Part shown: positions 146-61,264 of the stretch, one piece after another
Numbering within the stretch: the first letter of the stretch is position 1
How the letters are laid out: the number at the start of each line of letters is the position of its first letter
Assembly (NCBI RefSeq): GCF_030580865.1
Contig: NZ_JAUQSY010000007.1
Location: 124,001 to 188,000 of the forward strand
Source of the DNA: Hymenobacter aranciens
GTDB lineage: Bacteria > Bacteroidota > Bacteroidia > Cytophagales > Hymenobacteraceae
Direction of reading: 5' to 3'
DNA length: 64,000 nucleotides
Made by a program: the position numbers and the translations under genes
The notes under the pieces: model-generated
Told to the model about the DNA's origin: nothing
What the model saw: only the letters and a program-made list of their open reading frames with translations
Database searches by the model: none

Positions 146-158
146 CAGCACGACAAAC

Positions 159-337
159 TCCCCTCCTTGGAAAGGAGGGGATGTGAGCGCCGAAGAGGCG
201 CGAACGGGGGGGGGCGCCCGTCCGCGCCGTCTGGGTTTTTGTTAAAATACACTGCGTCGTTCTACCGGCGCGAGCGGGCGAACCACCCCCGTTCGGCGCT
301 CTTCGCGCCTCACATCCCCTCCTTTCCAAGGAGGGGA
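159..337. repeat. Palindromic MITE-like element, copy A (family 1)
   Basis: The two ends are inverted copies of each other over about 70 bases. Each arm starts with a small hairpin (CCCCTCCTTGGAAAGGAGGGG), then GGGGATG, a second small hairpin, then CGGGGGTGG (shifted by a G run in the left arm). The second hairpin has a GAAGA loop in both arms. Two more copies lie at 20221-20428 and 21298-21504. The element fills the gap between the SPOR fragment and the amidohydrolase gene and ends about 15 bases before the start codon of the latter. Confidence 0.85.
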
Positions 338-352
338 GCTTCTCGTTCTCTC

Positions 353-18665: not shown

Positions 18666-20192
18666 TTATTTGTTCGCTTTTCGCTCCTCCTCCAGACTCT
18701 CCTTCGTCATCACATCCACCATCCCATCTTCGCTCACTACCACGGCCAGGCAGGGATGCGCCGAACTCTCGACGTAGCGTACGGCCGAGTTATAGCGGGC
18801 GCCGCGGGCACCGTCGCCGTGGCCCGAGGCCTTACCGTCGAGGATGACGCCGATGGAGTAGCAGTAGCCTGCCGGGTCGAGCAGCACGGCGCCGTCGATG
18901 CTGGTGACGAGGCGGGTGATGAGCGGCGTGAGCGGCACCGGCTCGATGAGCGTGCACTGCAGCTTGAGACGGTCGGCCTCGGCCAGGGCTTCGGTGGTGA
19001 TAACGAGCAGCGTACCGCTTTGCTGGCGGCTGGCTTCGAGCACCACATCCCAAAGCAGTTCGGTATTGGCTTCGTCTATGACGCCGAAGGTGCGGCGCAA
19101 ATCGCGGCGGAACCGGGCGCGGTTGAGGCGGGTGCGGGGCAGGCTGGGCAAGCCGTAGTGGCAGCGCATCAGCACCTGGCCGCCGTGCTTCAGCTCCCAG
19201 GCGTAGTGGTTCACGAAGTTGATGGCAAACAGGTCTTCACGGCTAGGGTCGTAGGTGCCTACCACGCGGCCCAGGCCGTACACGCTCTCGCCATCGGCCA
19301 GCAGATGTACGTCGGGCGTCGTCATCTCCAGAAGCTTGCGCACGGCGCGGTAGTCGGTCAGCTCGGTGGGGCAGGTGAGGGCAAATACCTCCTCCAGATT
19401 GGGATGGTGGCGGCGGGCCAGAATGAGCTTGCCTACCCCTTCGGCGCCCTCATAGCGGAGACTCGAAATAGTATTGCAGGTAGCAAATAGCTTGGCCGTG
19501 GCCGGGTTGAAGCCCAGCGCGTGCGCCGGCGTGTCGAGAAACGATTTGCCGGCGGCGCGCAGCACCTCGTCGGTTTCGCGGGGGCGGCTGAGGAAGCCCG
19601 CACCGGGCTCGGGCTCGCTCAGGGCCTTCATACCTTCCTCGTTGAAGCGGTAGAGGGCCGCCGTGAGCAGGGAGTTGGCCAGCGGCTTGCCTTCGGTAGA
19701 GTAGCGCCCGGCCTTCAGCGACGGATACGTGCGGAACGGCTTGCGCTGCAGCCGCAACACGGTCATAATGAAATGCTGATTGATGAGCACCGGCCAACCG
19801 GCGAAGTGCAGATACTTGCCGTCGGCATCCAGCTCATCAAACACTTCCTGAGTGGCTTTACGCACGCCCAGGCCCTCGAAGCGCTGCAGCAGCAGCGTCT
19901 GGCTCATGTCGTCGCGCTCGAGCAGGGCGGGCCAGTTGCTGGTCAGCTGCATTTCGCGGCCGCGCTCCAGCACCTGGTCGAAGCGTTCGGCGGGAATATC
20001 AGTATTGACGGGCTCCAGCACGCGGGCCAACTGGGTGGTGTCGACGGGCAATGCCAGGAGCAGCACCAGCGGCTTCAGGTCATCGTCGAGGTTGTCGAAT
20101 AAATCCTGGGCTAGGGCCTGGCTGGCCTGACGGTAGCGGGCCTGGTGGGGCCACAGCAGTTGGGTGGGAGCGAGGATGGGCAGCGTGAGCAT
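18666..20192 (-). CDS. Diadenylate cyclase (DisA_N/DAC domain) with unusual N-terminal region
   Basis: A 508-residue protein ending in a DAC domain that makes the second messenger c-di-AMP from two ATP. The two signature motifs are present: DGA at 433-435 (SIDGAVLLDPAG) and RGARYNSA at 463-470, the counterpart of the RHRxA motif. The domain is at the C terminus, unlike DisA, and no membrane helices like those of CdaA are seen. About 350 residues precede it; this resembles the N-terminal putative sensor regions (DACNV type) described by comparative genomics for a separate DAC group. The ATG at 20192 is preferred over a TTG at 20219. A palindromic element sits immediately upstream. Confidence 0.85.
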   Translation of the reverse strand: MLTLPILAPTQLLWPHQARYRQASQALAQDLFDNLDDDLKPLVLLLALPVDTTQLARVLEPVNTDIPAERFDQVLERGREMQLTSNWPALLERDDMSQTLLLQRFEGLGVRKATQEVFDELDADGKYLHFAGWPVLINQHFIMTVLRLQRKPFRTYPSLKAGRYSTEGKPLANSLLTAALYRFNEEGMKALSEPEPGAGFLSRPRETDEVLRAAGKSFLDTPAHALGFNPATAKLFATCNTISSLRYEGAEGVGKLILARRHHPNLEEVFALTCPTELTDYRAVRKLLEMTTPDVHLLADGESVYGLGRVVGTYDPSREDLFAINFVNHYAWELKHGGQVLMRCHYGLPSLPRTRLNRARFRRDLRRTFGVIDEANTELLWDVVLEASRQQSGTLLVITTEALAEADRLKLQCTLIEPVPLTPLITRLVTSIDGAVLLDPAGYCYSIGVILDGKASGHGDGARGARYNSAVRYVESSAHPCLAVVVSEDGMVDVMTKESLEEERKANK

Positions 20193-20220
20193 ACAGCAGA
20201 AGAGGGGGGTGAACGACAAG

Positions 20221-20428
20221 CTCCCCTCCTGCTAAGGAGGGGATGTTTTCGCGCAGCGAAAACGGGGGTGGTTAGGCCACCCGCGCCGTTAGGTAATAAA
20301 GCTGAACAAGGCCCCGCGGGTTTCAAAAATCCACAGAAATTCTCCAGATATTACCCTGGCGGCGCGACCGGGCGAACCACCCCCGTCAAGCCTGCGGCTT
20401 GACATCCCCTCCTTGAGAAGGAGGGGAG
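20221..20428. repeat. Palindromic MITE-like element, copy B (family 1)
   Basis: Same design as copies at 159 and 21298: outer hairpin CCCCTCC/GGAGGGG, then GGGATG, an inner hairpin, then CGGGGGTGGTT, and the mirror image at the other end. The two inner hairpins differ: TTTTCGCGCAGCGAAAA on the left and, read on the other strand, GTCAAGCCGCAGGCTTGAC on the right. It fills the space between the TonB-C gene and the start of the diadenylate cyclase gene. Confidence 0.85.
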
Positions 20429-20444
20429 CTTCGTACCAACCGCG

Positions 20445-21254
20445 CTACAGTTGAAACAAGACGGGCAGCACCATCTTTTGCTTTAACGGCTTGCCATTAT
20501 AGCTGGCCGGCTCCCACTTTGGCGCCATTTTAATTAGCCGCAAAGCTTCTTCATCCAGCCCCGAGCCCATTTTCTTGATGACGCGGGCATCGGTGAGGGT
20601 GCCGTCGGCCTGCACCATGAACTCGACCATCACCTTGCCCTGGATTTTGCGCTGGCGGGCCAGGGTGGGGTACTTCTGGTTTTTCTCAATCCACTCGAAG
20701 AAGGCCTCGGTGCCGCCCACGGGGCGGGTGGGCTTGTCGGGCGCCACCACGGGCGGCCGGTCGGGGTTGGCTGAGGCGGCGATGTCGGCGGCATTGGCGG
20801 GGGCGGCGGGCGTACCCTTGGGGCCCACGGTCACCACCTCCGAACCGGGCGACATCACGAAGCTCACCGGCACCGTGATGCGCTGCCGCACCACCTTGCC
20901 AAAGTGCTGGGCAGGCGTCCACTTCGGCCCGCTCTTGATGAGGCGCAGGGCCTCGGCATCCAGCTCGGGCGAGAGCGGCTTGTCCACTTTTACCTCACCG
21001 ATGGTGCCGGTCTTTTCCACCACGAAGCTCACCGGTACCGTGCCCTGAATGCCTTTCTGCATGGCGGCGGCCGGGTATTTCTGGTGGTCGGCCAGAAACT
21101 GGGCGTACTTCTCGGTGCCGCCCAGCGGCACGGCCGGCTTCGATACCGAGTCGTACACTTGCGAGGCGTCGGGCTTGGGGGGCATTTTGAGTTTCTTCTG
21201 GGCGTGAGCGGTGACGGACAAACCCAGGAGGCTGAGCAGGAGGAGGCGTTTCAT
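20445..21254 (-). CDS. Exported protein with two TonB C-terminal domains
   Basis: A 269-residue protein with a cleavable-looking signal peptide (MKRLLLLSLLGLSVTAHAQ) followed by two tandem TonB-C domains. Domain 1 has KYPAAAMQKGIQGTVPVSFV and ELDAEALRLIKSGPKWTPA; domain 2 has KYPTLARQRKIQGKVMVEFM and GLDEEALRLIKMAPKWEPA. Each is introduced by a GGTE(K/A) motif. A linker rich in Ala and Pro joins them. Classical TonB has a membrane anchor and one C-terminal domain that contacts TonB-box receptors; a secreted double domain is a Bacteroidota variation whose partner is unknown. The ATG at 21254 fits the signal peptide. It lies between two copies of the family 1 repeat. Confidence 0.9.
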   Translation of the reverse strand: MKRLLLLSLLGLSVTAHAQKKLKMPPKPDASQVYDSVSKPAVPLGGTEKYAQFLADHQKYPAAAMQKGIQGTVPVSFVVEKTGTIGEVKVDKPLSPELDAEALRLIKSGPKWTPAQHFGKVVRQRITVPVSFVMSPGSEVVTVGPKGTPAAPANAADIAASANPDRPPVVAPDKPTRPVGGTEAFFEWIEKNQKYPTLARQRKIQGKVMVEFMVQADGTLTDARVIKKMGSGLDEEALRLIKMAPKWEPASYNGKPLKQKMVLPVLFQL

Positions 21255-21297
21255 GATTGGAGGGAATGGAGGGAGGTGCGAAGTACGAAGAAAGTAC

Positions 21298-21504
21298 AAA
21301 AGAACGACACTCCCCTCCTTGGAAAGGAGGGGATGTTTTGCCGCCGGCAAAACGGGGGTGGTTGGCCCGCTCGCGCCGTCTGAATGTCGCAGTAACTCAC
21401 AAGTAATCTAAAGCCCAACCGGCGCGACCGGCTCAACCACCCCCGTTCGGCGCTCTTCGCGCCTCACATCCCCTCCTTTCCAAGGAGGGGAGTGTCGTTC
21501 TTTT
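21298..21504. repeat. Palindromic MITE-like element, copy C (family 1)
   Basis: The inverted arms extend further out here than in the other copies, starting AAAAGAACGACACTCCCCTCC and ending with its complement. The left inner hairpin is TTTTGCCGCCGGCAAAA; the right one reads GAGGCGCGAAGAGCGCC on the other strand, identical to the right arm of copy A. It occupies most of the 303-base space between the divergent TonB-C and RidA genes. Confidence 0.88.
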
Positions 21505-21557
21505 CTGCCGTTCTTTTGTGCTTTCGCAGCACCATCCATTTCCCCCCCTAACTACGC

Positions 21558-21968
21558 ATGACTTCCCGCGCCCCCGAACCCGTTGGAGCTTACCCCTACA
21601 CCCGCCGCGTCGGCAATTTGCTATTCCTCTCCGGCGTGGGCCCGCGCCAGCGCGGCCAGAAAGCCATTCCCGGCGTCGAGCTCGACGACGAAGGCAACGT
21701 CGTCAGCTACGACTTCGAAAGCCAGTGCCACGCCGTGTTCCAGAACGTGCGCTACATCCTCGAAGAAGCCGGCGCCGAGTGGGACGACCTCGTCGACGTC
21801 ACCGTCTTCCTCACCAATATGAAGGATGACTTTCCCATCTACAACCGCCTCTACGCCGAGTATTTCGCCACCGCCCAGCCCTGCCGCACCACCCTCGAAA
21901 TTAACTGCCTGCCCACGCCCATCGCCATCGAGCTGAAGTGCATTGCGGCAATTAACAATGAGCAATGA
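21558..21968 (+). CDS. RidA / YjgF / UK114-family imine deaminase
   Basis: A 136-residue protein of the RidA family, which hydrolyses reactive enamine/imine intermediates released by PLP enzymes. Visible features are the N-terminal GNLLFLSGVGPR strand, LEEAGAEWDDLVDVTVFLTN, and RTTLEINCLP with Arg110 at the position of the substrate carboxylate-binding arginine. The insert after GPR makes it closer to RidA subgroups annotated as aminomuconate deaminase-like than to archetypal RidA. The last codons (INNEQ and stop) lie inside the foldback repeat at 21950-22066, so the C terminus seems to have been supplied by repeat DNA. Confidence 0.92.
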   Translation: MTSRAPEPVGAYPYTRRVGNLLFLSGVGPRQRGQKAIPGVELDDEGNVVSYDFESQCHAVFQNVRYILEEAGAEWDDLVDVTVFLTNMKDDFPIYNRLYAEYFATAQPCRTTLEINCLPTPIAIELKCIAAINNEQ

Positions 21969-25007: not shown

Positions 25008-25194
25008 AACTCAAGTTGAGAACCAGCCGCGAAGCGGCGACACGTTGGTAGTTTGAGCCAGTTTCAGCGACCAGAGTCGCAAAGCGGCGGCACTTCCACC
25101 AGGCAAAAGTGTCGCCGCTTCGCGGCTCTGCTTACGTCAGCCAACAACACTAGCTACCAACGTGTCGCCGCTTCGCGGCTGGTTCGCTTGGGTT
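25008..25194. repeat. Nested palindromic element (family 2), full copy
   Basis: A perfect 32-base inverted repeat (25020-25051 and 25154-25185; core CCGCGAAGCGGCGACACGTT) encloses a second imperfect one at about 25072-25095 and 25106-25130. Outermost ends AACTCAAGTTGAGAACC and, inverted, AACCCAAGCGAACC look like terminal inverted repeats. A related, internally deleted copy is at 45283-45379. The 24942-25648 gap contains this element and the tandem array below and no gene that I can support. Confidence 0.85.
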
Positions 25195-31427: not shown

Positions 31428-31430
31428 GTT

Positions 31431-31515
31431 GAGTTAAAAGTTAAAAGTGAGGAGTTAAAAATCCTGGAGAAAGCACCTCCAGGATTTTTAACTCCTCACT
31501 TTTAACTTTTAACTC
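31431..31515. repeat. Perfect 39-base foldback (AGTTAAA units) between convergent genes
   Basis: 31431-31469 and 31477-31515 are exact inverted complements with a 7-base loop. The arms contain GAGTTAAAAGTTAAAAGTGA, a heptamer-like motif repeated at 61014-61091. It lies between the ends of the T9SS type A gene (plus) and the S9 peptidase gene (minus) and could terminate both transcripts. Confidence 0.9.
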
Positions 31516-31521
31516 AAAAAT

Positions 31522-36439: not shown

Positions 36440-37093
36440 ATGAACAACTTTTTAGTGCAATCGAAAAAGGGCCTGCTCTGCGGGCTTATCCTGGCCCTGC
36501 TGGTAGCCGCGTGCACGGAGCGGGAAGAGTCGGGGCTGACGCGGGTGCGGGGGCAGGTGGTGCTGGCCGACAGCAACACGCCCGTGCCCACCCCACCCCC
36601 GGTGCAGGTGTGGGCGCAAGCGACGGGCGGGATGATAGGCAGCGCCTATGCCCCGGTGGGCGCGCCCCATGCCACGGACGAGCAAGGGAAATTTGACTTT
36701 AGCTTCCCGGCCGAAGGGGGCCAGCAGTACGTCTTGCGGGCGGCCGAGGGCAGGCTGGGCTACTACACGGACTGGAACCTGGCGCGAGCGCTGCGCAAGG
36801 GTGAGGAAAACGAGGTGCGCCTGCCGGTCTACGCCCCGGCCTGGATTCGCCTGGACCTCGTCGATGAGCCCCCACGCAGCCGCGTCTGGATGTTTTTCTC
36901 TGGGTTTGGGGGCGGGGGGCTAACGGTCCCTTATCCTCGTGATACGACGCTTATATTTCCTTATCTGACAGGCCCTGGTAAGGAGTCTTTCATCTTCTGG
37001 GCTATCAAGGATACTTTAGGTCGTGAAACGGAGTATCGGCGCACGTTCATTCAGCCCCCGCTGGACACGCAACGGGTGCGCATTGCCTTCTAA
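36440..37093 (+). CDS. Lipoprotein with carboxypeptidase-regulatory-like fold
   Basis: A 217-residue lipoprotein. The signal ends in the lipobox LVAAC (Cys25), followed by TEREESGLTRVRGQVVLADS. The following domain (TRVRGQVVLAD, DEQGKFDFSFPAEGGQQYVL) resembles the beta-sandwich 'carboxypeptidase regulatory-like' or Cna-B-type folds that many Bacteroidota lipoproteins carry. The C-terminal half is rich in aromatic residues and unassigned. A short, nearly identical copy of its start occurs immediately downstream at 37097-37222, showing a recent partial duplication. The ATG at 36440 is right for the signal peptide. Confidence 0.8.
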   Translation: MNNFLVQSKKGLLCGLILALLVAACTEREESGLTRVRGQVVLADSNTPVPTPPPVQVWAQATGGMIGSAYAPVGAPHATDEQGKFDFSFPAEGGQQYVLRAAEGRLGYYTDWNLARALRKGEENEVRLPVYAPAWIRLDLVDEPPRSRVWMFFSGFGGGGLTVPYPRDTTLIFPYLTGPGKESFIFWAIKDTLGRETEYRRTFIQPPLDTQRVRIAF

Positions 37094-37096
37094 GCC

Positions 37097-37222
37097 ATGA
37101 CGACTCTCACAAAGCTGCTCCCCATGCTACTTCCTTTGGCCCTACTCGCAGGCGCGTGCACGGAGCGGGAAGAATCGGGGCTGACGCGGGTGCGGGGGCG
37201 GGTGGTGCTGGCCGGGAACTAA
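37097..37222 (+). pseudogene. Truncated duplicate of the upstream lipoprotein gene (41 codons)
   Basis: A frame from the ATG at 37097 to TAA at 37220 encodes a lipoprotein signal (LLPLALLAGAC, Cys21) and then TEREESGLTRVRGRVVLAG followed by N and stop. The DNA from GCGTGCACGGAGCGGGAAGA onward matches 36511-36575 of the upstream gene almost base for base, whereas the signal-peptide codons differ. The frame stops where the parent continues for about 175 more residues. It could make a tiny lipopeptide but is best read as a remnant of a partly deleted paralogue. Confidence 0.75.
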
Positions 37223-53206: not shown

Positions 53207-53210
53207 AAGA

Positions 53211-53320
53211 GAATTATGAGTTATGAGTTATGAGTTATGAGTTACGAATAGACAGCGCTAGCTCAGGGAAGAGCCAACCAACTACCAATTCATAACTCAT
53301 AACTCATAACTCATAACTCA
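53211..53320. repeat. Foldback of ATGAGTT heptamers between reductase and ferredoxin genes
   Basis: Five tandem ATGAGTT-type units at 53211-53250 face their inverted copies at 53287-53320 across a 36-base loop. It touches the stop codon of the reductase gene (53321) and ends 4 bases before the ferredoxin start. Confidence 0.85.
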
Positions 53321-54337
53321 CTAAAGTGAAGGTGCCCCGTTCACCGTGGTGTATTTCAGGGTGTATTTTTTGTCGGGGAAAATGTACTTAAACGCGCCCT
53401 GGCACATCAGCGCTGCCTCGTGGAAGCCGCAGAGAATGAGCTTGAGCTTGCCGGGATAGGTGTTGATGTCGCCGATGGCGAACACGCCGGGTAGGGAGGT
53501 GCTGTAGTCCAGGGTATTCACCTTCACGGCGTCATCCTCAATATCCAGCCCCCACTCGCCGATGGGGCCGAGCTTGGGCGTAAGGCCGAACAGCGGAATG
53601 AAGTGGTCGAGCGCCACAGTGTTGCTGTCGCCGGCGTTGGCCGTGATGGTGACCTGCTCCAGTTGGTCGTCGCCGTGCAGGTGCGTTACGTTCGAGCTGA
53701 GCACCAGCTTAATTTTGCCGGCCTCGTGCAGCTTCTGCACCTTCTCGGCCGAGTCGGCGGCGCCGCGGAAGGTGGTGCCGCGGTGCACCAGCGTTACGTC
53801 GGCGGCCACGTTGGCCAGGAAATTGGTCCAGTCGAGGGCCGAGTCGCCCCCGCCGGCGATGACGATGCGCTTGTCGCGGAAGTGCTCGGGGTCGCGCACC
53901 ATGTAATGCACCCCCTTGCCGCCCTCGAAGCGCTCCAGGTTTTCCACGGCCGGCTTGCGCGGCTCGAACGAGCCCAGGCCACCGGCAATGGCCACCGCCT
54001 TGCACTGAATTTCAGTGCCATCGGTGGTGTAGAGCTTGAAGGAACCGTCATCGAGTTTCTCAAATTTCTCGACCCGCTCGCCCAGCGTGAACGTGGGGTG
54101 GAAAGGCTCAATCTGCTTCATCAGATTGTCAACCAGGTCGCCGGCCAGCACTTCCGGGAAGCCGGGGATATCGTAAATGGGTTTCTTCGGATAAATTTCC
54201 GACAGCTGCCCGCCGGGCTGCGGCAGGGCATCAACCACGTGGCAGCGAAGCTTCAGCAAACCAGCTTCAAATACAGCAAACAAACCGACCGGACCAGCGC
54301 CGACGATGCAGATATCAGTGGAAATGGGGGTGGACAT
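53321..54337 (-). CDS. Ferredoxin/flavodoxin-NADP+ reductase, thioredoxin-reductase-like type
   Basis: A 338-residue FAD- and NADP-binding enzyme. The FAD site is ICIVGAGPVGLFAVFEAGLL, followed by PGGQLSEIYPKKPIYDIPGF, a hallmark of TrxR-like FNRs. The NADP fold is RIVIAGGGDSALDWTNFLAN, and the second FAD motif is GVFAIGDINTYPGKLKLI. The redox CxxC of true thioredoxin reductase is absent, and the end (YTTVNGAPSL) resembles YumC-type FNR. It transfers electrons between NADPH and ferredoxin and lies upstream of a [2Fe-2S] ferredoxin gene. The ATG at 54337 was chosen over an upstream open extension. Confidence 0.93.
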   Translation of the reverse strand: MSTPISTDICIVGAGPVGLFAVFEAGLLKLRCHVVDALPQPGGQLSEIYPKKPIYDIPGFPEVLAGDLVDNLMKQIEPFHPTFTLGERVEKFEKLDDGSFKLYTTDGTEIQCKAVAIAGGLGSFEPRKPAVENLERFEGGKGVHYMVRDPEHFRDKRIVIAGGGDSALDWTNFLANVAADVTLVHRGTTFRGAADSAEKVQKLHEAGKIKLVLSSNVTHLHGDDQLEQVTITANAGDSNTVALDHFIPLFGLTPKLGPIGEWGLDIEDDAVKVNTLDYSTSLPGVFAIGDINTYPGKLKLILCGFHEAALMCQGAFKYIFPDKKYTLKYTTVNGAPSL

Positions 54338-61013: not shown

Positions 61014-61091
61014 GAGTTAAAAGTTAAAAGTGAAGAGTTAAAAGGGGAGAAAGCGTGCGGTTTTTAACCCTTCACTTTTAACTTTTAACTC
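61014..61091. repeat. Foldback of AGTTAAA units after the LytTR gene
   Basis: 61014-61043 (GAGTTAAAAGTTAAAAGTGA...) and 61062-61091 are inverted near-copies with an 18-base loop. The arms share 20 bases with the perfect foldback at 31431-31515. Confidence 0.85.
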
Positions 61092-61264
61092 ACCGCAGCG
61101 AGCGGTCTGCTAAACCACCTTTTTGGCCGACGATTTCGGGGTGTTTATCCACTCCCGGGGCTTTTGTGCCTTTTGCCTTGCAACGCCCGGTGCCCCCCAG
61201 GGCTCCTCTATGTGCCGGGCTTGGCGTTCCTCCGAACTAACTAAACGACCCTACCTACGCTTTC

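Follow-up and report, generated by a model that had tools for sequence, protein, structure and literature searches.

Palindromic repeats without a known mover are common in bacteria. MITEs are gene-less copies with inverted ends, and in integron attC sites it is a folded single strand that is recognised, its stem sequence being free. The closest described counterpart of the repeat presented here is the REPIN/RAYT system, in which REP elements are described together with the Y1 transposase TnpA_REP (PMC3116915, PMC3733652). On the enzyme side, the domain DUF559 (PF04480) carries the Pfam label 'unknown function'. Caulobacter VsrA contains a DUF559 domain, which its authors assign to the PD-(D/E)XK superfamily, with a predicted similarity to Vsr; it is functionally tied to a cytosine methyltransferase, and the accessible text of that paper makes no mention of repeats (PMC12907096). 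In the transposase/DUF559 hotspots of Legionella, the DUF559 segments are reported to be repeated regions with evidence of recombination, and these are, as far as the accessible text describes them, larger segments with a transposase and no mentioned palindromic arms, unlike the repeat described below (PMC12308824). Within the accessible text of the open-licence PMC literature no paper linking DUF559 to palindromic repeats was found; papers naming both DUF559 and 'palindromic' there use the word in its CRISPR sense or concern a different domain number. In the literature searched, a system made up of a DUF559 nuclease gene, a palindrome family belonging to it and a fold-out hairpin appears to be undescribed.

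We consider it probable (roughly 0.6) that the repeat, here called family 1, is the gene-less palindromic form of a two-part system with a cognate DUF559 nuclease, in which the inner hairpin words of the element are exchanged in place. The window, by which we mean the whole stretch of 64,000 nucleotides of Hymenobacter aranciens DNA that was analysed, contains three copies (A, B and C; Table 1). The original prediction had placed copy B at 20221-20428, and these coordinates are borne out. In each arm of copy B, a short link joins the constant hairpin on the outside (hp1, CTCCCCTCC-loop-GGAGGGG) to a variable hairpin further in (hp2), which is followed by a constant tail (CGGGGGTGGTT). The two arms are inverted with respect to each other, and copies A and C follow the identical plan. 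As had been predicted, the arms of copy B carry different inner hairpins, of the TTTTCGC type on the left and the TCAAGCC type on the right (the latter had been given reverse-complemented). Copy A has two words of the GAG type and copy C one of the TTTTGCC type plus one GAG word common to copy A, so that the expected minimum of four types over the three copies compares with five distinct words counted. Folded as single-stranded DNA, copy B is predicted to reach -72.5 kcal/mol vs -35.7 (sd 3.5) in shuffles (z -10.7), in a structure with a long arm-arm stem and a four-way junction from which both inner hairpins protrude; the predicted folded single strand and the free stem sequence are features shared with integron attC.

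Table 1. Coordinates of the family-1 elements and their parts in the window
Feature	Position	Strand	Sequence or remark
Copy B, left arm, outer constant hairpin hp1	20221..20242	+	CTCCCCTCC-TGCTAA-GGAGGGG
Copy B, left inner variable hairpin hp2	20246..20262	+	TTTTCGC-GCA-GCGAAAA
Copy B, left arm, constant tail	20263..20273	+	CGGGGGTGGTT
Copy B, centre	20274..20374	none	101 nt between the arms, gene-free
Copy B, right arm, constant tail	20375..20384	-	AACCACCCCC on +
Copy B, right inner variable hairpin hp2	20385..20403	-	GTCAAGCC-TGC-GGCTTGAC on +
Copy B, right arm, outer constant hairpin hp1	20406..20428	-	
Copy A, whole element	158..338	none	Inner words 185-204 and 292-311; left tail degenerate (GGGGGGGGGCGCC)
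Copy C, whole element	21310..21492		Inner words 21336-21352 and 21446-21465; flanked by divergently oriented genes

The window also holds repeats of other kinds. AT-rich inverted repeats of a second family (GAGTTAAAAGTTAAAAGTG / GAGTTATGAGTTATGAG) lie at 31429-31517, 53208-53322 and 61014-61092, one of them with 41-nt perfect arms. A perfect 32-nt inverted repeat (GAACCAGCCGCGAAGCGGCGACACGTTGGTAG) at 25020-25051 and 25154-25185, 102 nt apart, may be a REP pair, and a 78-nt direct repeat (36492-36569 and 37137-37214; 92% identical, 645 nt apart) perhaps represents duplicated short genes.

The family-1 frame is matched exactly 120 times in the 6.02-Mb genome, and its reversed pattern not once, so the repeat is not a product of chance. 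The genome stretches examined (the listed places and part of the rest) contain 125 arms, three of which have four frame mismatches and were excluded; the 122 arms with fewer than four mismatches make up 57 inverted pairs and 8 arms unpartnered at the same threshold, at least four of which have a decayed partner by eye. Conservation reaches from about 11 nt outside hp1 (AGAACGANAA) to about 22 nt inside the tail, and the conserved positions of the 122 arms read AGAACGANAA-CTCCCC on the outside and GGGGTGGTT on the inside. The inner hairpins are discrete self-complementary words that differ between the arms of the same pair in 53 of 57 pairs. Words of 16 nt are found in 71 arms (one being a truncated GAG word), 20-nt GAG words in 48 and words of other lengths in 3; pairing is complete in 63 of the 71 (7 of 7 pairs) and in 45 of the 48 (5 of 5). 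A few family-1 elements have a hairpin of the GGTCGGCGAAGCC type inserted into the inner hairpin or into the loop of hp1.

With two inverted hairpins, mostly intergenic positions and many copies, the 57 pairs have the layout of REPIN/RAYT repeats, and as in that system a single enzyme gene is flanked by the same palindromes. The enzyme differs, however, being a predicted DUF559 PD-(D/E)XK nuclease in place of a Y1 transposase, and so does the frame when compared with the RAYT repeats examined: the GTAG or CGTC tag at the foot of the REPIN/RAYT hairpin is absent among the conserved positions of the 122 arms, and free, exchangeable side hairpins form an extra layer. The system works like REPIN/RAYT, yet it lies outside that family by the family's defining feature, a cognate Y1 transposase.

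The original prediction held that the stem of the inner hairpin is selected while its sequence is free. This is supported by a set of 419 arms from 273 loci, from which 30 duplicate loci (L001-L030) had been excluded. Among 107 distinct 21-nt inner sequences, stem positions 2-8 are Watson-Crick paired in 89 to 105 of the 107, and most of these positions draw on two to four common types of pair. The mean is 6.53 of 7 pairs vs 3.44 when right halves are re-dealt (maximum of 200 trials 3.73), and sliding the partner leaves 1.8-2.1 of 7. Longer forms give 6.39 vs 2.93 pairs (61 distinct 22-nt forms) and 5.88 vs 4.73 (26 distinct 23-nt forms) under the same re-dealing. Loss of pairing in a larger set of copies, the outcome that would have spoken against the prediction, was thus looked for in 107 distinct sequences, and pairing was kept. 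The foot of the hairpin behaves differently, position 0-20 of the 21-nt forms being Watson-Crick in 1 of 107 vs 18 expected; these foot bases lie just outside hp2, at 20244 and 20264 around the left hairpin of copy B. The mismatch first suggested a Vsr-like mismatch recognition; it may instead simply fix the length of the hairpin, since in the predicted fold the partners of the foot bases lie in the other arm. It is not kept in all arms from other phyla.

The second part of the putative system is the DUF559 gene. A genus-wide search for PF04480 found the domain in 103 of 120 genomes and directly beside family-1 arms, and the loci examined show the order arm(+)-DUF559-arm(-), the centre measuring about 420-470 nt. 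In 14 of 14 genomes examined, nine of which had been chosen or found via arms and five (our own, G113, G033, G099 and G042) via DUF559 alone, a close form of the gene lies between family-1 arms at a single orthologous site, which is bordered by a gene whose product starts MKDFPYTESKDTRSGFG (14/14) and on the opposite side encodes MATEVVCP (13/14). By coordinates, arms stand on both sides of DUF559 in G071 and G072 as well, which brings the count to 16 of the 22 close-gene genomes, these 16 being the ones inspected. In the H. aranciens genome, one of the 14, the site is on contig C28 and DUF559 is interrupted; that the genome with the most repeat copies has an interrupted DUF559 speaks against the two-part system. 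Where intact, the close form is under purifying selection, with a median Ka/Ks of 0.095 and a maximum of 0.217 (12 intact genes; 42 of 66 pairs with usable Ks). The arms at this site carry 27 words, 23 of them distinct, and thus DUF559 stays put while the hairpins turn over; 26 of the words are 21-23 nt long, and pairing is complete (8 of 8) in 23 of these and reaches 7 of 8 in the other 3.

Repeat and gene also tend to occur in the same genomes. Exact arms are present in 19 of 22 close-gene genomes vs 11 of 98 others, counts that ignore phylogeny, and with a wider gene set and a relaxed frame arms occur in 20 of 26 genomes with the gene vs 9 of 21 without it (Fisher p 0.03, again ignoring phylogeny). 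The exceptions under the relaxed pattern are 6 of 26 gene-bearing genomes that are armless and 9 of 21 gene-lacking genomes that still have arms. Among 14 DUF559 loci chosen without regard to arms, 4 have the family-1 frame, and most of the rest are accompanied by different palindromes. A DUF559 domain is also found in our own genome (L478, C4:118410) within an open frame of about 912 codons, unlike the small element-borne form, and such 900-codon frames occur in several relatives.

Profile and model fold together identify DUF559 as a predicted PD-(D/E)XK nuclease. All five family-1 proteins match the PF04480 profile at 102-113.5 bits (cut-off 20.6), and residues invariant in seven aligned proteins include KFRRQ, DF, ELDG and RFEN. 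Among solved folds, an AlphaFold2 model (mean pLDDT 78.9) comes closest to 3HRL and to the homing endonuclease I-Bth0305I in its catalytic domain (3R3P; Foldseek E 3e-4, TMt 0.76), with a weaker match to Vsr (1VSR, E 0.08). On the strength of these modelled matches to 3HRL and I-Bth0305I, nuclease-induced conversion is plausible. The likeness to homing endonucleases thus comprises a match in the fold of the catalytic domain and, by analogy only, a break-induced copying of the element; unlike I-Bth0305I, the nuclease would presumably target the element's own dispersed palindrome.

The association between DUF559 and palindromes extends beyond family 1. Flanking inverted repeats score above the highest of 300 control windows at 24 of 29 DUF559 loci, two of which had been chosen for their arms, and do not at the other 5; the frames around these loci include CCTCACCCCC...CCCTCTCC and GACCCCATCCCCC...CCCTTCCCC. 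In a tree of 36 DUF559 proteins, in which some branches from other phyla are long, carriers of the GGGGTGG frame are split from the others with support 100/99, and their group comprises Hymenobacter together with Acidobacteria, Flavobacteriaceae and other Bacteroidetes that were found via the DNA pattern. Five frame labels require 4 changes on this tree, the minimum possible, vs 18.6 when shuffled. Scanning named genomes for the DNA pattern alone placed DUF559 in 9 of the 80 loci listed, and in 8 of those 9 within about 150 nt of an arm. In one locus of an Acidobacteria MAG (L352), DUF559 lies between two outward-facing arms, with the gene on the arms' outer side, the reverse of the Hymenobacter order. 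Plasmid DUF559 loci of other groups exceed the maximum of 160 single-base-shuffled controls in 8 of 16 cases and do not in the other 8.

Closer relatives bear on the inner hairpin itself. Of the 37 listed loci of a sister band of DUF559 proteins (55-65% identity to the close form), 20 were examined, and at 18 of them the gene is flanked by a hairpin-less frame, CTCCCCTCC-loop-GGAGGGG-(CTA, TTG, TTA or CTG)-GGGGTGGTT, with 3 nt where family 1 has the inner hairpin; the other two are a hairpin version (G054) and a locus without such a repeat (G105). Because these sister nucleases keep the frame without the hairpin, the hairpin would seem to be an optional insertion that folds out, its sequence being immaterial. 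A self-complementary insert could fold away and leave the frame contiguous again, and therefore only its pairing would matter. The nuclease link and the hairpin as an optional insertion both go beyond the original prediction.

Its further proposal, that half-elements recombine like cassettes, was followed within and between genomes. Both arms of a pair share an inner word in 4 of 57 pairs vs 2.9 expected (p 0.32), which is the level of chance, and 51 ordered word combinations occur among the 57 pairs; loops of the outer hairpin match within a pair in 36 of 57 vs 25.2 expected (0 of 20,000 shuffles as high). In the sister genomes G067 and G089, whose flanks are 89-96% alike in the alignments inspected, the gene flanks and hp1 are conserved and the inner hairpin, often together with the centre, is replaced by another word. 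Four ambiguous rows at L283 were removed from 43 orthologous rows, and the resulting 39 arms comprise 11 that are the same, 11 that are near (at least 80% identical, with loop, single or compensated changes) and 17 that are less than 80% identical, two of these at 78%. For 11 of the 17 swapped arms, one or both of the words compared recur in exact form on another of the arms examined in their own genome; the G089 words, taken by themselves, recur in this way among the G089 arms examined in only 5 of the 17. The cassette proposal is therefore supported, words being shared between arms at chance level and swapped in place, by an exchange whose mechanism would be the one set out below.

Whole elements are gained and lost as well. 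Seven elements lacking a strict-pattern counterpart between G067 and G089 were placed by colinearity, and in 7 of 7 the other genome has no element. The element-less loci contain a terminator-like hairpin (L318), a single hp1-like hairpin (L271), other sequence (L269, L289) or another palindrome family, of the TGTCATTGCGAG type at L313 and the GTCATGCTGAGC type at L321 and L272; these two types of repeat may be systems of the same kind. No target duplication or clean empty site was found at the seven loci, where different sequence stands in place of a simple gap, nor among the purH and IspH orthologues (30 loci each). Inverted arms are common to family 1 and the MITEs of DDE insertion sequences; the target duplication expected of the latter was looked for at the seven placed loci and not found, and the transposase search covered Y1. 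At purH in other species the element is absent or a different one is present, and the idea that elements supply the stop codons of their neighbours was rejected there, the native C-terminus being intact. Element positions are common to G071 and G072 (99% identical) as far as colinearity matched, and this pair is too similar to be informative on empty sites. At L322, L323, L324, L326, L327, L328 and L329, the sister genomes G067 and G089 have simple hairpins or different families of palindromes in the slot behind the gene.

The position of the elements relative to genes, as given by our own simple gene caller, raises another explanation, namely that the host keeps them as 3' UTR stabilisers or as terminators of transcription in both directions, that they spread and exchange by ordinary recombination, and that DUF559 is a passenger. 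Called genes contain none of the 57 pairs, although one pair extends about 30 nt into the end of a gene. Of the 57 arm sides that look towards the end of a gene, 32 have its stop codon terminating 6-10 nt short of hp1. By sequence consensus, copies B and C have the make-up of an intrinsic terminator, a GC hairpin followed by a T-rich tract near a stop codon, and the region that holds them (19900-21800) contains 10 terminator-like sites vs 2.2 in shuffles. Furthermore, 5 of the 7 element-less sister loci are, in our reading, taken up by a palindrome of another family, a terminator or a lone hairpin. However, the neighbouring genes are co-directional for 41 pairs, convergent for 6 and divergent for 10, the last being a setting in which a terminator is needless, and a host function of this kind leaves unexplained why DUF559 sits between arms at a conserved site, why frames co-segregate with the protein across phyla and why the gene is under purifying selection. 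We regard this explanation as unlikely.

Improbable, too, is an origin of the words by mutation, in which template switching at a quasi-palindrome copies one arm of the stem onto the other and so keeps pairing without selection. In some orthologous arms the difference is indeed confined to the loop or to a single compensated pair (for example L292/L310 and L263/L297), but the 17 of 39 that fall below 80% identity, and the recurrence of the same word at many loci, are at odds with it, and it leaves both the DUF559 tie and the hairpin-less sister frame unexplained. The strong covariation and the fold would also suit an element that acts as a structured RNA, with selection on its folding in cis or in trans; this is very doubtful, as the window has no Rfam match at gathering scores, every gene orientation occurs and the centres vary widely among copies. 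The least credible alternative, that a Y1 transposase (RAYT) moves the repeats as REPs, can point to the common layout, in which inverted hairpins come in pairs and the enzyme gene is single, to a RAYT-like gene in our own genome and to a family-1 element about 1 kb away in 2 of 20 RAYT neighbourhoods (L182, L186), but a check of the two Y1_Tnp genes of our own genome and 20 RAYT neighbourhoods of relatives led us to reject RAYT as the mover, since the RAYT of our own genome and six others examined for repeats are flanked by other palindromes (with a GTAG foot in L182) instead of the family-1 frame, and G054 has 10 exact arms without a Y1 match. The RAYT-like gene (L092, C1:169290) is flanked by palindromes of its own (GTGGTAGTACGAACCGCTGCGCGGAATT).

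We therefore return to a two-part system of palindrome and nuclease. Its first part would be the bipartite frame, that is, the hairpin CTCCCCTCC-loop-GGAGGGG and the tail GGGGTGGTT, mostly in two inverted arms, and its second part the putative cognate DUF559 nuclease, associated with the frame through the position of its gene between two arms in the close-form relatives examined. In single-stranded DNA the arms are predicted to pair with each other, leaving the inner hairpins to stick out at a four-way junction. Inserted between hp1 and tail, the hairpin would, once folded out, leave the frame contiguous, and any self-complementary word would then be tolerated. The homing-like nuclease, or ordinary recombination, may break or nick the element, after which repair, acting by way of the constant frame, would most likely take the interior from a different copy and so yield an in-place exchange of words; a nuclease-driven exchange is what we infer. 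A wider reading is tentative, and we rate it at somewhat less than an even chance: that there is a cross-phylum class of mobile palindromes driven by homing-like DUF559 nucleases, in which a clade-specific bipartite hairpin frame is recognised in folded DNA, the chromosomal population is gene-less and reshuffling occurs by break-induced conversion, with a fold-out hairpin of arbitrary sequence inserted in the present case.

For the host, swaps and gains of elements put terminator-like structures right behind genes, and therefore expression may change. In H. aranciens itself the cognate DUF559 is interrupted, and the spread of the repeat may thus have stopped. The system constitutes a natural experiment in which about two hundred different hairpin sequences meet one structural constraint. 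Should DUF559 clades and palindrome frames prove to correspond across phyla, this would point to a function of the domain as well as of the repeats, and one that is directly testable.
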